Made by a program: the position numbers and the translations under genes. DNA of 64,000 bases from Aliarcobacter vitoriensis (GTDB lineage: Bacteria > Campylobacterota > Campylobacteria > Campylobacterales > Arcobacteraceae), in NCBI RefSeq assembly GCF_003316695.1, contig NZ_PDKB01000007.1, positions 1 through 64,000 of the forward strand, in the 5' to 3' direction. How positions within the stretch are numbered: position 1 is the stretch's first letter; every line of letters starts with the position of its first letter. Below, in pieces: positions 6,412-15,067 of the stretch. Below the pieces are notes generated by a model. The model was not told the DNA's origin. It was given only the letters and a program-made list of their open reading frames with translations, and ran no database searches.

Positions 6412-6455
6412 TAGATTATAAGTTTATTAGACTTAGAATCTATCTATTTTTTTTT
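6412..6455 (+). terminator. Intrinsic terminator of the M48 gene
   Basis: A 12-bp stem with one mismatch (TAGATTATAAGT with ACTTAGAATCTA) and a 7-nt loop is followed by TCTA and nine T. It overlaps the end of the convergent GGDEF gene. Confidence 0.7.
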
Positions 6456-7645
6456 AAATACATCTCTTTATCAGCTGTTTCAAGTAGAGTCTTAGCATCT
6501 TCTCCATCCTTTGGATATATACTTGTTCCAAAACTAAATGATAATTCAATAATTAAATCTTTATTATAGTGAAATGGCATTTTTCCAGAAACTTCTTGTA
6601 TCCTAGAAATAGTTTTTTCTAAATATTCTACGGATTCTAAGCTTTCCAATAAAACAACAAATTCATCTCCACCGAGCCTTGCAACTGTATCTTCTTCTCT
6701 TACAGTATGTTTTAAAACTTCTCCAATATGTTTTAATAACATATCACCAACATGGTGTCCATAAGTATCATTTACTGCTTTAAATTTATTTAAATCAATA
6801 AAACATAAAGCAAAGAATAAATTATTCTCTATAGATTTTTCTATATTTTCATCTATTTTTTTAGTCAAATACAATCTATTTGGAAGTCCAGTTAAACTAT
6901 CGTGATTAACTGCATATTCAAGTTCGCTCTCTATCTTTTTTAGATATGTAATATCTTGACAAACTATAATTTTGTCAGATGATATGTCATTATTAATATT
7001 TATAATCTCAGCATGAAAAAATATCTCTATATTATCTTTATTTTCTGCTCTTAAGATATTACTATGACTATTTAAGTCAATTTTTTTATTTCTTGAAAAA
7101 AAGTATTCTGAAAGATGTTTATTTATCAATTCTTTTTCTTCTAATCCTAGAAATGAAGTACAAGCACTATTTGCATTTTTTATAAATCCATCATTGTCTA
7201 TTTGAAAGCTTATAAGTTTTTCATTGATTTTATTGAAAGTTTTTTTAGTATTATAATTGTGAAGATTTGTTTCATTCATTTTTTGAATATTTTTGAAATA
7301 TTCCATAAGATTATTCTGCTGTTTCGTAAACATTGCTATAAAATATTTTTTATTTTCTATAAAACAAATTTCAACATTAATGTCATAATATATATTATTT
7401 CTAAATATCATGGGAAGATGTAAATACTCTTTTTTATCTTCATATAAGTCATTTAAACTATCTTCTAGTCCTACAAATTCCCAAAAAACTTCTCTTAAAT
7501 CTGATTTCTCAGATATTTTTAAATCAGATTCAATAAAATCACTCATATTTTCAACAAAATCAATAATGGCTAAATCTTTATCAAAAAGAACATAAGCTAT
7601 CTTATATTTACTACAAACTATTGGTAAAATTAAATCAGTTTTCAT
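6440..7645 (-). CDS. PAS-GGDEF diguanylate cyclase
   Basis: A 401-residue soluble protein expected to make cyclic di-GMP from two GTP. It has a PAS-like N-terminal region (about 1-120), a second PAS domain (about 140-230) and a GGDEF domain (about 240-401). The active-site GGDEF is intact in ARLGGDEFVVLL. An RxxD product-inhibition site (REED) lies five residues upstream. There are no membrane segments. It overlaps the small GTPase gene by 4 nt (ATGA), so the two are translationally coupled. The GTPase module may therefore steer the cyclase; this is inferred from context only. Confidence 0.9.
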   Translation of the reverse strand: MKTDLILPIVCSKYKIAYVLFDKDLAIIDFVENMSDFIESDLKISEKSDLREVFWEFVGLEDSLNDLYEDKKEYLHLPMIFRNNIYYDINVEICFIENKKYFIAMFTKQQNNLMEYFKNIQKMNETNLHNYNTKKTFNKINEKLISFQIDNDGFIKNANSACTSFLGLEEKELINKHLSEYFFSRNKKIDLNSHSNILRAENKDNIEIFFHAEIININNDISSDKIIVCQDITYLKKIESELEYAVNHDSLTGLPNRLYLTKKIDENIEKSIENNLFFALCFIDLNKFKAVNDTYGHHVGDMLLKHIGEVLKHTVREEDTVARLGGDEFVVLLESLESVEYLEKTISRIQEVSGKMPFHYNKDLIIELSFSFGTSIYPKDGEDAKTLLETADKEMYLKKNR

Positions 7646-8157
7646 TTAATCAAATTTCCAACAACAGTAAAATTCAAAATTTCAAATATATCATTTACAC
7701 AAGTTTCATCTTTTGCTGATGTTTTAAAAACTTTAATAACATTTGAAGATAAAGATTTTATACTATTCAAATCTATCTCTTCATGTTGCAAATCACTTTT
7801 ATTTAAAGCAATAAAAATAGGAGCTGTTCCAACACTTTTTTGGCAAAGTAAAATATGTTCATTGATTGAATCAAGACTCTCTTTTCTTGTTACATCAGCA
7901 ACTATAATAAAAGCTTTTGAACCCATAAGATGATGAGCAAAAATTGGTTGAAAATCAGTTTTTCCTTCAATATCCCAAATCATCATAATTGATTTATGTT
8001 CTATACTATTAATATTAGAAATTAGCTCTTTTTTCGATATAGCAACACCAATACTACTTTTGTACTCTTCACTAAAGCTATTGTCCACAAATCTTCTTAT
8101 AAGACTTGTTTTTCCTGTACCATAATCTCCAACTAAAACTATTTTATAACTAAACAT
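7642..8157 (-). CDS. Ras/Rab-like small GTPase
   Basis: A 171-residue single-domain GTPase resembling eukaryotic Rab/Ras and bacterial MglA/Rup proteins. The P-loop is GDYGTGKTS (residues 10-18). The G3 region is WDIEGKTDF, G4 is NKSD and G5 is TSAK. The Ras catalytic Gln (DTAGQE) is Lys here, so unaided hydrolysis may be slow and a partner may be required. There is no C-terminal prenylation motif or membrane helix. It lies 9 nt after the OmpA/roadblock-like gene and overlaps the diguanylate cyclase gene. Its role is probably as a switch at the membrane, as inferred from the operon. Confidence 0.85.
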   Translation of the reverse strand: MFSYKIVLVGDYGTGKTSLIRRFVDNSFSEEYKSSIGVAISKKELISNINSIEHKSIMMIWDIEGKTDFQPIFAHHLMGSKAFIIVADVTRKESLDSINEHILLCQKSVGTAPIFIALNKSDLQHEEIDLNSIKSLSSNVIKVFKTSAKDETCVNDIFEILNFTVVGNLIK

Positions 8158-8166
8158 AAAAAACCT

Positions 8167-9792
8167 TTACTCTTTCCATTTGAAAATAACTCTTCTACCC
8201 TGCTCTTGATAATCTTCTTCTATTCCTTCTGGAATTTCATTACGACCTAAATTAACAAGTTTTTGAGATACATTTCCTTTTAGCTTCAAATATCTCATAA
8301 CATTTAAAGCTCTTTGATTTACTAAAATTTCATTTCTTTCTATTGAACCTGTATGATCTCTAAATCCATAAACTTCTAAAACCAAATCATCATCTAATTT
8401 ATGTAGTAAACTAATAATGTTTATAAGTTTATACTCTTGATTTGGTAAAATTTCAGAAGAGTTTAAATCAAAATGTATAACATCACTTATTTGTGGTGGG
8501 ACTATTTTTATATCAAATTCCAACTTTTCTAAGCCCTCAACCAAAGAAAATTGACTTTCAACATATTTTTTCTCGTTTTTACTAATAACAGAACCTGTAA
8601 CTTTAAGATTTGGATAATCATAAATATAGCCTATCTTATTACCATCTTTTTGATTCAATGCCATTCTTAAATATGTTATTTTGTCATAAATATCTTTTGG
8701 ATTATTTATATAATCAATAACTTGAATATTATTTTCTAATTTATTTACATTTGGTAACTCTTTTAAAGAGTTAAAAGCAATATCTTTATAAAAAGTATTT
8801 GGAACAACACCATTTATAAAAATATCTCTATTTTTTACACTAACTTCTAATCTATAAATAGTAAGTTCTGGATTTTTATACAAAATATCATTTGCTTTTT
8901 TCTCTAAATTAGTATCAATAATGTATAAATATATAAAATATCCAATAGCTGATAGTATAGATAATGGAACAATATAAATTATAGGATGAATACTTTTGTG
9001 TTCTTCTATATACTCTTCATAATTCATTAATGGTAATAAAATTTCATTTATTTTATCTATTGGTAGATTGGCTAAATTTCCATCAAATTCTCTTATTTTT
9101 GAACCATATTTTGATACAACTAAAGCTAAAGATTCATCAAGTTTTCTATATACATCTTTTGTTACAACACCATCAACAATAGCTGCTAAATAGCAACTCG
9201 TACTACTTTCTATTACAATTTTACTTCCACCGTAATCAATAGTATTTAACTCTTTATTTTCATCATTTTTTTCAACCCAATCATTCACAAAACTTCTAAT
9301 AGCTGTAAGCATAGAAGCAACCATTTCTGGTTCAGTTATATTGCTATTTTTGTTTTCCAAAGTTGTCAAAACAACTCCACTATTTTTGTCTATTAAAAAA
9401 AGTGTTTTTATATAGGCTTTTGTACTCTCTTTTATCAAAAGTTCAGTTTCACTAACACCTTTTGCTTTTGCTCGTATCTTTCTACTTATTGCTTTAAAAG
9501 AAAATCTATTTCTGATTTGATTATTGATAGAATTTATCATATCTTCAAAAGTTCTAGTTACATATTTCGTAAGCATATTTCCTATAATTGGATATAAACT
9601 ATCTACAACATCATCTCTTGAAGATTTAATATTATCTTTTATGGCTGTTGTTACAACAGGAGATATTTTTTGTTTGATATGTTCACTACTATTTGATTCA
9701 AATTCAAGCTTCTCAATCTGTTTTTTAAGTTCATCAAAATCTTCAAGCTCTTTTTTTAATAAAAGCTCTTTCAATCGTTGTAGTTCATTCAT
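8167..9792 (-). CDS. Membrane protein with roadblock/longin-like, BON and OmpA-C domains
   Basis: A 541-residue protein with an unusual order of parts. It has a coiled coil (1-35), a basic amphipathic region (55-112) and an alpha/beta segment (about 125-235: YIKTLFLIDKNSGVVL, MLTAIRSFVNDW, YLAAIVDG) that looks like a roadblock/longin fold. One transmembrane helix follows (about 270-292), then one or two BON-like domains (300-430) and an OmpA C-terminal peptidoglycan-binding domain (435-541). The N-terminus should be cytoplasmic and the C-terminus should grip peptidoglycan. Roadblock proteins are partners of small GTPases (MglB with MglA), which fits the neighbouring GTPase. The OmpA and membrane assignments are firm; the roadblock assignment is by eye. 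Confidence 0.8.
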   Translation of the reverse strand: MNELQRLKELLLKKELEDFDELKKQIEKLEFESNSSEHIKQKISPVVTTAIKDNIKSSRDDVVDSLYPIIGNMLTKYVTRTFEDMINSINNQIRNRFSFKAISRKIRAKAKGVSETELLIKESTKAYIKTLFLIDKNSGVVLTTLENKNSNITEPEMVASMLTAIRSFVNDWVEKNDENKELNTIDYGGSKIVIESSTSCYLAAIVDGVVTKDVYRKLDESLALVVSKYGSKIREFDGNLANLPIDKINEILLPLMNYEEYIEEHKSIHPIIYIVPLSILSAIGYFIYLYIIDTNLEKKANDILYKNPELTIYRLEVSVKNRDIFINGVVPNTFYKDIAFNSLKELPNVNKLENNIQVIDYINNPKDIYDKITYLRMALNQKDGNKIGYIYDYPNLKVTGSVISKNEKKYVESQFSLVEGLEKLEFDIKIVPPQISDVIHFDLNSSEILPNQEYKLINIISLLHKLDDDLVLEVYGFRDHTGSIERNEILVNQRALNVMRYLKLKGNVSQKLVNLGRNEIPEGIEEDYQEQGRRVIFKWKE

Positions 9793-9800
9793 ATCTTAAC

Positions 9801-10376
9801 TTATTCTTTTGGTTCTTCTATTAAGTTTAACTGGCTTTGAATGTTATTCCCTTTTATTCTTAAAGCTGCTTCCATCATAATTTCAGCAGCATCATCTCTT
9901 GAAAGTTTAATATTATTCATTTGAGCCAATTTATCTTCAATAAATTCAAAAACTTCAAGTTTCAAAAAGTTTAACTCTTCACTTAAAGATTTTTTACTAT
10001 CGCTTTGGTCTTTTGTAAGTTGTTCTATTTTTACACCTATTTCTTCATTTAATAGATCTATATTGTGTTGAATTCTTTTTTCTTGTTTTAAATTACCATC
10101 TTTTATATCTGCAAACTCATCTTGCTGAGTTGTTGTTAGGTTTTTAATTCTTTTTGATATTAATTCAACTTCATTTTCAAGTTTTTGATTAAACTCTTTT
10201 TGGCTAAACTCAATTTTTGACTTTAAATCATCAAAAGATCTTTTAATATCAACTTCAAGCTTTTCAAATCTTTTATTTAGTTCTCTTGATTGAGAACCAA
10301 ATAAAATTTCTCTTATTTGGTCAACATTTCCTAATTCACCAGTAGTTTCACCTATATTTTTTTGATTTTCATTCAT
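9801..10376 (-). CDS. Coiled-coil protein of the small-GTPase operon
   Basis: About 191 residues, almost entirely predicted coiled coil, with no signal or membrane segment. The N-terminal motif VDQIREILFGSQSRELNKRF (about residues 18-37) resembles an ILFG-x-Q-x-R-x-x-x-KRF signature that I recall from short coiled-coil proteins encoded beside OmpA-type genes in other phyla. That recollection needs a search. I start at the ATG at 10376, six nt after AGGAG; the upstream ATG at 10382 abuts the AGGAG directly. It probably assembles with the membrane protein 8 nt downstream. Confidence 0.7.
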   Translation of the reverse strand: MNENQKNIGETTGELGNVDQIREILFGSQSRELNKRFEKLEVDIKRSFDDLKSKIEFSQKEFNQKLENEVELISKRIKNLTTTQQDEFADIKDGNLKQEKRIQHNIDLLNEEIGVKIEQLTKDQSDSKKSLSEELNFLKLEVFEFIEDKLAQMNNIKLSRDDAAEIMMEAALRIKGNNIQSQLNLIEEPKE

Positions 10377-10395
10377 TTTCATCTCCTAAAATAGC

Positions 10396-11106
10396 TTACG
10401 CAATATTTGTATAAACAGCTTGAACATCATCGTCATCTTCAAGTTTTTCTATTAGTTTTCCTATATCTTCTTGTTGTTCTTCACTAAACTCTTGAGGATT
10501 ATTTGGAATTCTTTTTAATTCAGCTTTTGTTAAAGCAATACCAAGTTCTTCAAACTTATTATTCATATTTCCAAAGTCTGTATAGTTTGCATAAGCCAAA
10601 CATAAACCATCTTCTTCTTCAAGCTCTTCAAGTCCAGCATCTATTAATTCCATTTCCAAATCTTCAAGCTCATAATTTTCTGGTTTATTAAACTCAAAAA
10701 TAGCTTTTCTATCAAAGAAAAACTCTAAAGAACCAGTAGGTACAACTTGTCCTTGTGTTTTATTAAAATACATTTTTACATTTGCTACTGTTCTAGTATT
10801 ATTATCTGTTGCTGTTTCAACAAAAATCAAAACTCCATGAGGACCTTTTCCTTCAAAGTTTACTTCACTAAAATTTGCTGCATCTTTTCCAGTTGCTCTT
10901 TTTATAGCTGCATCAATATTTGCTTTTGGCATATTTTCAGCTTTAGCATTTAAAATCGCTGTTCTTAAAGCTGAATTCATCTCTGGATCTGGAACTCCTG
11001 TTTTTGCTGCTACTTCTATTGCTCTTGCCAATTTTGGGAAAACTCTTGACATATTTCCCCATCTTTTCATTTTAGCTGCTTTTCTATACTCAAAGGCTCT
11101 ACCCAT
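10396..11106 (-). CDS. yebC: YebC/PmpR-family protein
   Basis: A 236-residue cytosolic protein of full family length. It starts MGRAFEYRKAAKMKRWGNMS and has the conserved GPHGVLIFVETATDNNTRT segment. The family includes transcriptional regulators, and some members act as translation factors that relieve ribosome stalling. It is the first gene of the leftward operon, 13-19 nt before the coiled-coil gene. Confidence 0.95.
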   Translation of the reverse strand: MGRAFEYRKAAKMKRWGNMSRVFPKLARAIEVAAKTGVPDPEMNSALRTAILNAKAENMPKANIDAAIKRATGKDAANFSEVNFEGKGPHGVLIFVETATDNNTRTVANVKMYFNKTQGQVVPTGSLEFFFDRKAIFEFNKPENYELEDLEMELIDAGLEELEEEDGLCLAYANYTDFGNMNNKFEELGIALTKAELKRIPNNPQEFSEEQQEDIGKLIEKLEDDDDVQAVYTNIA

Positions 11107-11254: not shown

Positions 11255-11998
11255 ATGAAAAAACTAATTCTTATAATGTTTTTTACACTATTAAGTTTTG
11301 CAAATGAGCCAATAAACAATGATTTTCCAGAAGAATTTGATTCTGAATTTTCTTCAAAAACTGAAGATATTTTTGACCCATTAAGTGGTTATAATAGAAC
11401 TATGACTTCTTTTAACGATGGATTTTACTCTTATGTTTTAACTCCTGTTTCAAAAGGTTACGCATATGTTGTACCAAAACCTGCAAGAACGGGTATAAAC
11501 AACTTTTTTACAAATTTAATGTTCCCCGTAAGATTTATAAATAATCTTTTACAATTTAAATTTCAAAATGCTTCAGAAGAAATGGGAAGATTTTTTATAA
11601 ATACAATTTGGGGAATTGGTGGATTTATGGACCCAGCAACAGATGTAATAGGTATGAAAATCCATAGAGAAGATTTTGGGCAAACACTTGGATATTGGGG
11701 GATCGGAGATGGCTTTCCAGTTGTTTTACCATTTATAGGTCCTTCAAATCTAAGAGATATGGTTGGATTAACAGGAGATTTTATAGTAGCACCTACAAGT
11801 CAACTAGGTCATAATACTTTAGATTATAAAATTCCACAAAACACTCTTCAAGAGTTAGGTATAGATACTGTTTATAAAGTAAATGAGTATTCATTTAACC
11901 CTAATTTTTATGAAATAATAAAAAAAGATGCTTTAGATTTATATCCATATTTAAGAGATGTTTATAAGCAAAAAAGAACTAAAGAGATAGAGGAATAG
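11255..11998 (+). CDS. mlaA: MlaA/VacJ family outer-membrane lipid protein
   Basis: A 247-residue MlaA homologue that should extract phospholipid from the outer leaflet of the outer membrane. The family signature is clear: DPLSGYNRTM, then FINTIWGIGGFMDPA and EDFGQTLGYWGIG. It has a signal peptide (LILIMFFTLLSFA) but no lipobox Cys, unlike E. coli MlaA, so it is not a lipoprotein. AAAGGATATGGT precedes the ATG. It is the first gene of a tight operon with mlaC and an MMPL exporter. Confidence 0.93.
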   Translation: MKKLILIMFFTLLSFANEPINNDFPEEFDSEFSSKTEDIFDPLSGYNRTMTSFNDGFYSYVLTPVSKGYAYVVPKPARTGINNFFTNLMFPVRFINNLLQFKFQNASEEMGRFFINTIWGIGGFMDPATDVIGMKIHREDFGQTLGYWGIGDGFPVVLPFIGPSNLRDMVGLTGDFIVAPTSQLGHNTLDYKIPQNTLQELGIDTVYKVNEYSFNPNFYEIIKKDALDLYPYLRDVYKQKRTKEIEE

Positions 11999-11999
11999 A

Positions 12000-12581
12000 A
12001 TGATGAAAAAATATTTTTTGAAAATTGCACTTATAACAATAATTATATCTTCAAATGCTTTTGCATTAAAAAAAGATGATATACAAGAAGAGATGTCGAA
12101 AAAAATCGATAGTGTTTTAGTAGTATTAAAAAATAAAGATTTAAATTTTGAAGATAAAAAAACAGAAATTATAAATATAGTTGATGATGCTTTTGATTTT
12201 GAACTTATGGCAAAAATTGCATTAGGCAAAGATGCTTGGGAAAGTATAGATGAACAAAAACAAGATGCTTTTGTTAAAGTTTTTGAAGAAAAGCTAAAAA
12301 AATCTTATAGTGAAAAACTTGAACTTTACAATGACCAAAAAGTAAAAATCATATCTTTAGAACCATATAATAAGACGAGACTTCAATTAAAAACTCAGCT
12401 TGTTGGTAAAGATGGAAATTATGATGTAAATTACAATTTTTATGAAAAAGATAAAGAGTGGTATATTTATGACATTGACTTGGTTGGTGTAAGTATCATT
12501 CAAACTTATAGACAACAGTTTGCAGGATTGTTAAAAGAGAAATCTTTTGATGAAATGTTTGAACAATTTAAAAACCAATAG
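12000..12581 (+). CDS. mlaC: MlaC family periplasmic phospholipid carrier
   Basis: A 193-residue secreted protein of the MlaC/Ttg2D family. It has a signal peptide (to about residue 21), a long helical region, and the typical C-terminal motif DLVGVSIIQTYRQQFAGLLK. It shuttles phospholipid between the membranes. It begins one base after the mlaA stop, with two adjacent ATGs and GAGGAA just upstream, and ends 5 nt before the MMPL gene. Confidence 0.92.
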   Translation: MMKKYFLKIALITIIISSNAFALKKDDIQEEMSKKIDSVLVVLKNKDLNFEDKKTEIINIVDDAFDFELMAKIALGKDAWESIDEQKQDAFVKVFEEKLKKSYSEKLELYNDQKVKIISLEPYNKTRLQLKTQLVGKDGNYDVNYNFYEKDKEWYIYDIDLVGVSIIQTYRQQFAGLLKEKSFDEMFEQFKNQ

Positions 12582-12586
12582 TTCTT

Positions 12587-15067
12587 ATGGTAAAAAGGCT
12601 TTACGATACCTTTATTTTTAGGTATCCTTTTTTAGTTTTACTTCTTGTAGCTTCTTTTATTGCAACGTTAGGATACTATTCTAGTAAAGTACAAATAGAT
12701 GCAAGTGCGGAAACACTTTTACTTGAAGATGATGAAGATTTAAGATTTTTTAGAGAAGTTTATAAAAAATATGAAAATTCAAATTTTCTAATAGTAACTT
12801 TCTCTCCAAACGATGACCTTTTAAGTGAAAAATCTTTAGATACTATTAAAAAAATATCTTCAGATTTTGAACAAGTTGATAATATTACAAAAGTTGATTC
12901 AATATTAACCGTTCCTCTTTTACAATCTCCAATTCGCCCTATTTCTGATTTAGTTGCTGGTGTTGATAACTTACAAACAGGAGAATTTGATAAAAATCTT
13001 GTAAAAAATGAGTTTTTAACTTCACCTTTATATAAAAATGCTCTTGTAAGTTCTGATTTTAAAACAACTGCAATTATTTTAAATCTAAAAGATGATAATA
13101 AATATTTTGAATTTTTAGATAAAAGAAATGCTCTTTTAGAGAAACAAAAAAATGGAACTATAACAAAAAATGAAGAAAAAGAGTTGGAAACAACTATTGT
13201 TGAATTCAAAAAATTTAGAGATATTTTAAGACAAAATGACAAAAAAAATATCGAACAAATAAGAGAAATTATTAAAAATTATGATAATGAAGCAAAAATA
13301 TTCCTTGGTGGAGTAAATATGATATCTTCGGATGTTATAGGATTTGTTAAAAGTGATTTACTTATTTATGGTTTGAGCCTTATCATAATATTTATTTTTA
13401 TTCTTTGGTATATTTTTAGAAGAGCAAGATGGGTTTTCATACCACTTTTAATATGTTTTATATCTATCATCTCAACTGGTGGTGTCTTAGGATTTTTTGA
13501 TTGGGAAGTTACAGTAATATCTTCAAACTTTGTAGCACTTCAGCTAATAATTACTATGTCGATAGTTATTCATCTAATAGAAAGATATAGAGAGTTATTT
13601 TTCAAATATAAAAAAGCGAATCAATATAAACTTGTAATGAACACCGTTTTATCAAAATTAATTCCTTGTTCTTTAGCTATTATTACAACTGTTGTAGGTT
13701 TTGGTTCTCTTGTATTATCAAATATAGAACCAGTTATAAATCTTGGACTTATGATGAGCTTAGGGATAGTTATATCATTGATTATATCTTTTATTGTTTT
13801 TCCAATTATTTTAATTCTTATTGGTAAAAAAGATGAATTTGACAAATCTGATAGAAAATTCTCTTTTATAAATAAATGTTCAAAAATAGTTGAGAATAAT
13901 GGAAAAGCTATCATAGTTGTAAGTATTATAACTGTTGTTTTTTCTATTGTAGGGGCTTCAAAACTTTTTATTGAAAATAGTTTTATAAACTACTTTAAAA
14001 AATCAACTGAAATTTATAAAGGAATGATAGTTATAGATGAAAATTTGGGCGGAACTACTCCACTTGATATAATTATCAAATTTAAAAATGATGAAATACA
14101 AGAAAAAATAATTGTTAATAATAGTGATTTTGATGACTTTGAAAATGAATTTATCTTATCAAAAGAGGATAAACAATACTGGTTTACTCAAGATAAAATG
14201 GAAACTATTATGGCTGTACATAACTATTTAGAATCAATTCCTGAAATAGGCAAAGTACAATCTTTAGCAACATTACTAAAAATTGGTAAAACTCTAAATA
14301 ATAATCAAGATTTAGACGGTATAACTTTAGCTTTAATTTACAATCAACTTCCAGAAGAATATAAACAACTAATATTATCTCCTTATGTAAATATAGATGC
14401 AAACGAAGCAAGAGTTACGATGAGAATTATAGACTCAAATCCAGATCTAAGAAGAGATGAATTACTACATAAAATAAATAAAGATTTGGAAAATATAATA
14501 ACAAATAAAGAAACGACATATAGATTATCAAATCTTATGGTTTTGTATAACAATATGTTACAATCACTTTTTGAGTCGCAAGCTTCAACTTTTGGTGCTT
14601 CACTATTTGTTTTATCAATTATGTTCTTTTTGATTTTTAGATTATCAAAAGTTGTTTTTATAGCAATAGTATCAAATCTTATACCTATTTCATTGGTTTT
14701 TGGTATTATGGGATGGCTAGGAATTCCTCTTGATATTATGACTATTACAATAGCAGCTATTGCTTTGGGAATAGCAGTTGATGATACAATTCACTTTATT
14801 CATCGATTTGAAGTTGAGTACAAATTTGACCATAACTATATGAACGCTATAAAAAGAGCTCATGAAGGAATTGGACATGCAATGTACTATACAACTATTA
14901 TTATAGTAATAGGTTTTTCTATTTTAACACTTTCAAATCTTATTCCTACAATATACTTTGGTCTTCTAACAGGAATTGTAATGATTAGCGTTTTAGTTGC
15001 TGATTTATTGTTATTACCAAAAATGTTACTAATGTTAAAACCATATAATAAAAAGGAGAAAAAATAA
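12587..15067 (+). CDS. RND/MMPL-type exporter
   Basis: An 826-residue inner-membrane protein of the COG1033-like RND superfamily. There is one helix near 13-32, a large periplasmic loop, a block of five to six helices (about 250-420), a second loop, and another block (about 660-815). The VDDTIHFIHRFE motif in the last block is typical of the sterol-sensing/MMPL type. Its place right after mlaA and mlaC suggests that it moves lipids in the same pathway. No mlaD, mlaE or mlaF is present here. Hopanoid transport (HpnN-like) is an alternative, but no hopanoid genes are visible. Confidence 0.88.
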   Translation: MVKRLYDTFIFRYPFLVLLLVASFIATLGYYSSKVQIDASAETLLLEDDEDLRFFREVYKKYENSNFLIVTFSPNDDLLSEKSLDTIKKISSDFEQVDNITKVDSILTVPLLQSPIRPISDLVAGVDNLQTGEFDKNLVKNEFLTSPLYKNALVSSDFKTTAIILNLKDDNKYFEFLDKRNALLEKQKNGTITKNEEKELETTIVEFKKFRDILRQNDKKNIEQIREIIKNYDNEAKIFLGGVNMISSDVIGFVKSDLLIYGLSLIIIFIFILWYIFRRARWVFIPLLICFISIISTGGVLGFFDWEVTVISSNFVALQLIITMSIVIHLIERYRELFFKYKKANQYKLVMNTVLSKLIPCSLAIITTVVGFGSLVLSNIEPVINLGLMMSLGIVISLIISFIVFPIILILIGKKDEFDKSDRKFSFINKCSKIVENNGKAIIVVSIITVVFSIVGASKLFIENSFINYFKKSTEIYKGMIVIDENLGGTTPLDIIIKFKNDEIQEKIIVNNSDFDDFENEFILSKEDKQYWFTQDKMETIMAVHNYLESIPEIGKVQSLATLLKIGKTLNNNQDLDGITLALIYNQLPEEYKQLILSPYVNIDANEARVTMRIIDSNPDLRRDELLHKINKDLENIITNKETTYRLSNLMVLYNNMLQSLFESQASTFGASLFVLSIMFFLIFRLSKVVFIAIVSNLIPISLVFGIMGWLGIPLDIMTITIAAIALGIAVDDTIHFIHRFEVEYKFDHNYMNAIKRAHEGIGHAMYYTTIIIVIGFSILTLSNLIPTIYFGLLTGIVMISVLVADLLLLPKMLLMLKPYNKKEKK

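Follow-up and report, generated by a model that had tools for sequence, protein, structure and literature searches.

The window analysed here is the whole stretch of 64,000 nucleotides (nt) forming positions 1 to 64,000 of contig NZ_PDKB01000007.1 of Aliarcobacter vitoriensis. Its minus strand carries a cassette of four genes which, in the order of reading, encode a coiled-coil protein, a protein of 541 amino acids (aa) with a predicted longin domain, a transmembrane helix, two BON units and an OmpA-like domain, a Ras-like GTPase, and a PAS-GGDEF output protein. The locus fits the Group 1 Rup system, whose gene neighbourhood is already in print as uncharacterised, the cytoplasmic domain of its membrane protein being given there as of "unknown function" (Wuichet and Søgaard-Andersen, 2014; PMC4316618). 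With that system it shares a GTPase lacking the G3 glutamine, the coiled coil, a membrane protein made of a domain, a transmembrane helix and OmpA, and an output of the cyclase/phosphodiesterase or histidine-kinase kind. What is new in this analysis, and differs from the published description, is the prediction of a longin fold for the cytoplasmic domain; a Rab-like switch would thus be encoded beside a wall-anchored protein having the fold that eukaryotes use for Rab control. The earlier note on this DNA knew of no described function for the module. The gene set is in fact published as Group 1 Rup, but no activity, partner fold or experiment, and no later work on Rup by name, was found in the open-licence literature besides PMC4316618.

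Five leftward open reading frames (ORFs), namely these four and yebC ahead of them, had been listed in that note with gaps of 8–19 nt and a 4-nt overlap, and all five lie there on the minus strand (Table 1). The spacing between yebC and the coiled-coil gene is 13 nt if the latter starts at 10382 and 19 nt if it starts at 10376, whose ATG suits the AGGAG better. The coiled-coil gene is separated by 8 nt from the gene of the 541-aa protein and this by 9 nt from the GTPase gene, which overlaps the output gene by 4 nt. The BON, OmpA and Ras assignments of the note were likewise recovered by Pfam. In a joined tree of Rup and longin sequences the window pairs with Arcobacter vandammei (L023; 75% identity), and its host belongs to the Arcobacter group of Campylobacterota.

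Predicted fold of the cytoplasmic domain

Pfam gave no significant match within residues 120–240 of the 541-aa protein. AlphaFold2 predicted this region as strand-strand-helix-strand-strand-strand-helix, with a further helix at residues 245–256. The full model, built on a 59-row alignment, had a predicted local distance difference test (pLDDT) of 80.7 and a predicted template modelling score (pTM) of 0.44 and contained only one longin; the domain-only model (residues 98–262) reached a pLDDT of 81.9 and a pTM of 0.73. In the latter the longin order b-b-a-b-b-b-a-a is present, C-terminal helix alpha3 included (E28-38, E44-49, H58-79, E87-90, E93-99, E103-110, H115-137 and H148-159 in model numbering), and an extra helix at residues 115–123 precedes strand 1.

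All 50 matches listed for the domain-only model belonged to the longin/roadblock superfamily as judged by entry title, the AP, COPI and sedlin chains among them also having this fold. The best of those listed was chain A of human Fuzzy-Inturned, the guanine nucleotide exchange factor (GEF) of Rab23 (Z 13.3, 2.6 Å, 124 aligned residues), and other leading longins were Sec22b (Z 13.0), chain D of Bet3-Trs33-Bet5-Trs23 (Z 12.9) and VAMP7 (Z 12.9). Residues 127–261 of the full model gave similar results, with Sec22b at Z 13.0 and Fuzzy-Inturned with Rab23 at Z 12.8. Roadblocks scored lower (Z 10.4–11.2 over 99–109 residues, with the core in common), the best being Asgard roadblock-3 at Z 11.2 over 103 aligned residues, with MglB at Z 11.0 over 108. 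This gap goes together with the C-terminal helix, which is outside the roadblock rows, whereas longin rows align through alpha3: MglB rows stop at model residue 136–138 and longin rows extend to 158–165. The longin has been described as having lost the N-terminal helix of the roadblock and put an additional C-terminal helix in its place (PMC10933270). Foldseek ranked longins and roadblocks mixed (p14/MP1, E 8.8e-5; a chain of Mon1-Ccz1-Ypt7, E 9.4e-5). Therefore, membership of the predicted domain in the superfamily is firm, and its being a longin rather than a roadblock is probable. The segment that the earlier note had guessed to be roadblock or longin, ahead of the membrane helix, agrees with this prediction, and the modelling that it proposed for residues 120–240 yielded the longin/roadblock fold, of the longin kind rather than the roadblock one.

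At the sequence level, Fuz_longin_1 (PF19036) matched weakly 7 of the 59 family members (best E 0.021), including the window protein (E 0.037, 14.7 bits); against the family consensus it gave E 0.0014 and 19.2 bits, under its curated cut-off of 26.1. The Roadblock/LC7 profile PF03259 matched a single member of the 59, with E 0.09 and below its cut-off. Conservation was highest in helix alpha1 and next in beta1 (mean relative entropy 2.25), the other elements ranging between 1.23 and 2.25; residues M161, A164, I165 and F168 of alpha1 are conserved at 0.90–1.00 by weight.

The GTPase and the remaining products

In switch I of the GTPase, F28 is found in 57 of 59 Rup sequences and both Y32 and G37 in all 59, the commonest reading being F-S-x-x-Y-x-S-T-I-G-V. 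Position 33 is L in 39, I in 7, H in 7, K in 5 and V in 1, the window having K33. The near-invariance of WDxEG and STIGV is partly built in, as both stretches (switch I from S34) served as patterns in the contig scan. The position of Ras G12 is occupied by a bulky residue (F in 62 of 77, Y in the window). The window GTPase reads DIEGK and lacks the G3 glutamine, as in Group 1 Rup. Glutamine at the position of Ras Q61 was present in 2 of 64 output-paired GTPases and, as a difference from the published group, in 5 of 25 cyanobacterial Rup. These 25, found by profile, have as G3 motif WD[ILV]EG (20), WD[LI]YG (4) or WDIAG (1), and the last one belongs to the sole genome with no longin match among 20 Rup-bearing cyanobacterial genomes. 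The window genome has four further Pfam Ras matches, making five in all; these four do not get beyond 8.8e-9, weaker than that of the cassette, and are in frames 456–892 aa long.

F28 and Y32 correspond to F33 and Y37 of Ypt7, which fit into hydrophobic pockets of Mon1-Ccz1 (PMC5216073, PMC12383261). In Ypt7, Y37 is essential, Y37R losing stimulation, while F33A is still stimulated (PMC5216073); K38 is the lysine inserted there to expel Mg2+. Together with the rarity of Lys at position 33, the switch I pattern points to a related way of docking and speaks against identical chemistry. A free MglB was also considered as the regulator of Rup in the window genome and rejected, as PF03259 had no match there; a search of 33 genomes gave a match in 6.

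Pfam recognised in the output protein a GGDEF domain (9.8e-42) and a PAS domain (5.3e-5, residues 147–186). As read from the sequence, the GGDEF site is intact (RLGGDEF) and preceded at five residues by an RxxD inhibition site. For the N-terminal 125 residues of the window protein Pfam found nothing at E 0.1, and PAS_9 was found in 3 of 56 outputs; a PAS identity for this part was accordingly rejected. The reading of the last gene as a PAS-GGDEF cyclase stands for the window and is not general, since the domains found among 65 outputs were GGDEF (42), HisKA (18, histidine kinases), EAL (14) and WD40 (2).

An output glutamine described as invariant has been proposed to act in trans (PMC4316618). 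In the column that best fits it, chosen in this analysis and lying in a loose part of the alignment (Q121 of the window), 64 outputs have Q in 47, N in 7, K in 6, R in 2, S in 1 and G in 1. The GTPases beside the 17 outputs without Q carry K, H or R at the Q61 position, and never Gln; in L025, closely related to the window, this column has K and the partner GTPase also lacks Gln. If this column is the one meant, the comparison suggests that the glutamine is not required everywhere, which weakens its catalytic role.

The coiled-coil protein, judged so from its sequence, has no visible signal or transmembrane stretch, which fits a cytoplasmic protein. In 61 loci, the window among them, a relative of it is encoded immediately ahead of the longin gene. 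The VDQIREILFGSQ motif pointed out in the earlier note recurs among them, the pattern [RKQ]x[ILVM][ILVMF][FLYI]G being present in 60 of the 61 and absent from L080, whose frame is broken. Among these 60, whose G and allowed letters are fixed by the pattern itself, the basic residue is R or K in 59 and F is found in 55.

The topology of the 541-aa protein, with two BON units outside the membrane helix, is predicted from models and hydropathy, and the first Foldseek match of the whole model was the dual-BON protein DolP. A transmembrane helix after the longin was detected by a hydropathy test in 48 of 59 family rows and an OmpA domain in 49 of 59 longin proteins. Of the 50 rows that include the relevant columns of this domain (window included), 45 have D at D479 and all 50 have R at R494, both residues presumably acting in wall binding.

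Table 1. Position of the cassette, its neighbour yebC and their elements in the window
Feature	Positions	Strand	Basis
YebC gene	10396-11106	-	ORF; Pfam YebC domains 1e-47 and 2.2e-25
Gene 1, coiled-coil protein	9801-10376 (191 aa) or 9801-10382 (193 aa)	-	ORF
VDQIREILFGSQ motif of coiled-coil protein	10290-10325	-	Pattern search in relatives
Gene 2, 541-aa protein (predicted longin, transmembrane helix, BON, BON, OmpA)	8167-9792	-	ORF, Pfam, AlphaFold2
Predicted cytoplasmic longin domain, residues 115-260, short extra helix ahead of strand 1	9013-9450	-	AlphaFold2 models, structural matches, weak Pfam Fuz_longin_1
Longin helix alpha1 (predicted), residues 155-176, most conserved element	9265-9330	-	Mean relative entropy 2.64
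Predicted transmembrane helix, about residues 271-290	8923-8982	-	AlphaFold2 helix 271-306, hydropathy
BON domain 1, residues 293-359	8716-8916	-	Pfam 7.4e-7
Second BON-like unit, residues 386-430, structure only	8503-8637	-	AlphaFold2 strand-strand-helix-strand
OmpA-like peptidoglycan-binding domain, residues 434-541	8170-8493	-	Pfam 2.6e-8 (441-511), Z 17.2 to 9uu2
Gene 3, Group 1 Rup-type Ras/Rab-like GTPase, 171 aa	7642-8157	-	Pfam Ras 1.6e-26, motifs
Switch I, F28-S-E-E-Y32-K33-S-S-I-G-V38	8044-8076	-	Motif table
G3 motif D62-I-E-G-K66, without Ras-type glutamine	7960-7974	-	Motif table
Gene 4, output protein (N-terminal domain, PAS, GGDEF)	6440-7645	-	ORF, Pfam
Gln121 of output protein	7283-7285	-	Column best fitting the published invariant Gln (column chosen in this analysis)

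Distribution of the cassette

A contig scan with the GTPase alignment gave 76 loci, of which 73 were kept. The three dropped from the module counts (L067, L083 and L090) are contigs of archaeal metagenome-assembled genomes (MAGs), by record title of Thermoplasmatales and Euryarchaeota, that encode TPR-Ras fusions (Ras 3.1e-35 to 6.7e-39). The complete four-gene order on one strand was found in 59 of the 73 loci, with median spacings of 9, 0 and -1 nt, which confirms that the module is not a chance arrangement. By the phylum labels of the sequence records, complete orders amounted to 25 of 32 loci in Campylobacterota, 17 of 18 in Pseudomonadota, 8 of 8 in Bacteroidota, 4 of 9 in Cyanobacteriota, 3 of 3 in Thermodesulfobacteriota, 1 of 1 in both Bdellovibrionota and Calditrichota and 0 of 1 in Spirochaetota; the similar neighbours in other phyla that the earlier note mentioned are thus borne out in seven of them. 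Of the three refuting conditions named in that note, the two on the fold and on co-occurrence were examined, and neither went against it. In this count the output was called by position (same strand, at least 200 aa, start at most 250 nt past the GTPase), upstream gaps of up to 800–900 nt were tolerated, and near-duplicates (L053/L054 and L029/L030), two loci with a further ORF ahead of the GTPase (L066, L074) and three with split frames (L035, L036, L080) were included. Seven of the 14 incomplete loci have their GTPase less than 1 kb from a contig end (L022, L024, L027, L040, L042, L056 and L095), L042 having in addition no coiled coil towards its open side. Real or unexplained departures make up the rest (L043, L044, L045, L047, L050, L070 and L092), and in L092 the domain protein lies downstream of the GTPase.

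Co-occurrence was studied by running a longin and a Rup profile on identical sets of genomes, which are related and hence not independent events. Among 298 Campylobacterota genomes, the longin was found in 8, and these were also the 8 with Rup at 183 bits or more; the Rup profile gave only 83–94 bits, in long frames, for G242 and for a second site in G266. In 146 genomes of the cyanobacterial phylum of the Nostoc genome G161, 19 had the longin and 20 had Rup (E 1e-30), with 19 in common, and 21 of the 24 longin sites lay within 2.5 kb of a Rup. The gammaproteobacterial class of the Hahella genome G172 (185 genomes) had 17 longin genomes, of which 16 also had Rup at E 1e-20, including G524, divergent in both; five more genomes had Ras-like matches of 76–108 bits and no longin. 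Within the genus of the window, 10 of 26 genomes had the longin, 11 had Rup and 10 had both.

The earlier note had counted YebC into the module, and this did not hold. In the 25 yebC loci of the genus examined among these 26 genomes (window included), the coiled-coil gene follows yebC in only 10, the same 10 that have the longin. YebC was accordingly rejected as a fifth member, the cassette being present or absent behind it within one genus. Other genes follow in 14 loci, such as that for an M48 peptidase (L152, L157, L161) or the start of acnB (L144, L145), both named by likeness to window genes. In the remaining one, L160 of genome G664, Rup and output lie 246 nt behind yebC with no readable coiled-coil or longin gene between them, so this genome offers a natural test of Rup working without the longin. 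In the joined tree, which contains no reference Rup, MglA or eukaryotic sequences, Bacteroidota and Cyanobacteriota each form one group, and two changes are required for Campylobacterota; four MAGs of Helicobacteraceae cluster with three of Thermodesulfobacteriota (100/99), which suggests transfer.

No functional neighbourhood outside the four genes was conserved in 206 flanking ORFs inspected by eye over their first 45 residues, and the neighbouring genes vary with the lineage. Several arrangements deserve mention, in which the pilT-, pilU- and pdxA-like genes and the roadblock- and RND-like proteins were named by eye. In the gammaproteobacterium G650 (L130:1974-5678), a coiled-coil gene and that of a 959-aa longin protein lie directly behind pilT- and pilU-like genes, a possible link to type IV pili. 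Two cyanobacteria (L131:2712-6320 and L132:3417-7028) encode a second, lone longin protein of 1,202–1,203 aa beside a pdxA-like gene, and no Rup or coiled-coil gene was seen in the stretches read. A small roadblock-like protein of 129 aa is encoded on the opposite strand, two genes past the module, in Sulfurimonas/Campylobacterales (L028:8225-8614 on the minus strand, and L031, L036 and L085); in L028 it stands between SixA-like and PAS-like proteins, and PF03259 finds no match in that genome. In the window itself, positions 11255-15067, divergent beside yebC, encode MlaA (Pfam 7.3e-69), MlaC (3.1e-37) and an 826-aa membrane protein like an RND transporter, which is probably an outer-membrane lipid-transport cluster.

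Possible mechanism, related systems and meaning

We give even chances to the Group 1 Rup cassette being a transmembrane GTPase relay, in which a wall-anchored longin dimer docks or loads Rup and Rup controls the cyclase. The 541-aa protein would lie in the inner membrane with its BON/OmpA part gripping the peptidoglycan outside, and the longin dimer would present a cytoplasmic platform made of two alpha1 helices, as TRAPP and Mon1-Ccz1 do for Rab. On this platform, acting as GEF or as recruiting surface, Rup would dock through F28 and Y32 of switch I and receive GTP. The coiled-coil protein may bridge the parts through its LFG motif, and Rup-GTP would act on the PAS-GGDEF protein at its N-terminal domain, setting cyclic di-GMP, into which the output of the module probably feeds. 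The stimulus here would probably be the state of the envelope. We infer the dimer, the docking, the direction of exchange, the bridging, the action on the cyclase and the stimulus; the platform was proposed because alpha1 is the most conserved element and because Rabs are bound in TRAPP and Mon1-Ccz1 on the surface built by both alpha1 helices (PMC5216073).

Several observations weigh against this relay. At the position equivalent to Ypt7 K38 only 5 of the 59 Rup, the window among them, have Lys, and F33A of Ypt7 is still stimulated; therefore the match in switch I is suggestive only. The unrelated Pfam family DUF5623 matched 6 of the 59 members of the longin family with a best E of 0.00081, better than the longin family of Pfam did. 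Among PDB chains, the longin profile matched five up to E 10, none of them a longin; phmmer with the longin consensus found an unrelated dehydrogenase at 0.0032, and three single relatives had no Pfam match whatever. Therefore the Fuz_longin_1 value for the consensus bears little weight alone; a proof of the longin from sequence only was rejected, and the sequence support by itself is weak. In addition, 3 of the 24 cyanobacterial longin sites have no Rup neighbour (the second sites of G368 and G428, and G407), G650 has the longin and no Rup match at E 1e-20, and G664 has Rup and output and no longin match. Finally, the Bacteroidota versions are devoid of transmembrane helix and OmpA, those of Flavobacteriaceae (7 of 59) stopping after the longin without a wall anchor, so wall sensing would not be essential to the device.

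The main rival to a GEF or platform is that the longin protein is a GTPase-activating protein (GAP) or off-switch, so that a wall-anchored platform inactivates Rup, as MglB does with MglA. We regard this as rather unlikely. Folliculin-type longin proteins do act as GAP or off-switch on their GTPases, and in Rup the bulky residue at the G12 position and the rare glutamine at that of Q61 imply that hydrolysis should need help. The catalytic groups might come from the longin protein, from the coiled-coil protein, whose motif has a near-invariant basic residue, or from the glutamine helix of the output, the action in trans of which was proposed by Wuichet and Søgaard-Andersen (PMC4316618). However, the longin has no invariant Arg, its best basic columns being R 0.53/W 0.40 and then K 0.53/R 0.47 by weight, and the proposed glutamine is replaced in 17 of 64 outputs, including L025 with its Gln-less partner.

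Improbable, in our judgement, is that longin, coiled coil and Rup make up a structural or polarity scaffold placing the cyclase, or pili in some hosts, at one site, with the nucleotide cycle gating localisation and not cyclase activity. The OmpA domain and the coiled coil do suggest positioning, MglA/MglB is a polarity device, and by eye a pilin-like gene precedes the module in Pleionea, besides the pilT/pilU-like genes ahead of the G650 pair; but the flanking ORFs showed by eye no further pilus or flagellar neighbour, and the neighbours vary between lineages. Very improbable is that the likeness reflects a mere PAS/GAF/longin/profilin-type fold, the longin sensing another thing and the GTPase being controlled by other proteins. 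Identity is indeed very low, only 6–15% in the structural rows listed for the domain-only model. Against this stand the uniformly longin/roadblock matches listed, the conservation falling on the helix through which these folds dimerise and bind GTPases, and the adjacency of the Rup and longin genes in most cases.

The proposed relay can be compared with several known systems. The conservons of Actinobacteria (CvnABCD) are also operons in which a signalling enzyme is joined by a roadblock protein and a Ras-like GTPase, but their GTPase is of MglA type, their roadblock of MglB type and their enzyme a sensor kinase, and no OmpA anchor is described for them in the available parts of PMC4316618 and PMC13343842. 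MglA/MglB of Myxococcus and Thermus likewise joins a bacterial Ras-like GTPase to a neighbour of the roadblock/longin superfamily; however, MglB is a free roadblock protein, whereas the domain studied here would be tethered to membrane and wall. YfiB-YfiR-YfiN couples OmpA-type wall binding to a diguanylate cyclase, and YfiB structures were among the structural matches of our OmpA domain. YfiB works in the periplasm on a transmembrane cyclase, whereas here the signal would run via the GTPase, and the cyclase itself has no predicted anchor. With Mon1-Ccz1, Fuzzy-Inturned and TRAPP, the cytoplasmic domain shares the predicted longin fold and an additional helix ahead of strand 1 like alpha0, which precedes the longin core of Mon1 (PMC5216073). 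Further points in common with the longin RabGEFs are the Rab-like F28/Y32 of switch I and the best structural match, a Fuzzy-Inturned chain. They differ in that Rup has not conserved the catalytic Lys of Rab7/Rab23, that tri-longin GEFs have three longins per subunit where there is one per chain here, presumably in a homodimer, and that no TRAPPC3-type partner was seen in the operon.

Doubtful, though worth stating, is a homology between the eukaryotic pair of Rab and longin GEF and the Rup-longin pair, which several phyla carry in one operon and in which the longin would load the GTPase under coupling to the cell wall and to cyclic di-GMP. This Rup group is most similar to Rab/Ran/Ras/Rho (PMC4316618). 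If the homology were true, an exchange device of Rab on longin would be older than Asgard archaea and eukaryotes, or not confined to them. The longin assignment itself also touches on how membrane traffic originated. In MK-D1, an Asgard isolate, the GTPase genes are generally not in longin operons and matching of partners is hard (PMC10933270), whereas here the operon itself shows the pairing in Cyanobacteriota, Bacteroidota, Pseudomonadota, Campylobacterota and others. The predicted longin gives Group 1 Rup a testable biochemistry, in which the alpha1 face would serve as GEF, GAP or platform, and Tyr32 of switch I is a clear target for mutants. If the relay is true, it would be a route for a wall-bound protein to set cyclic di-GMP through a small GTPase.

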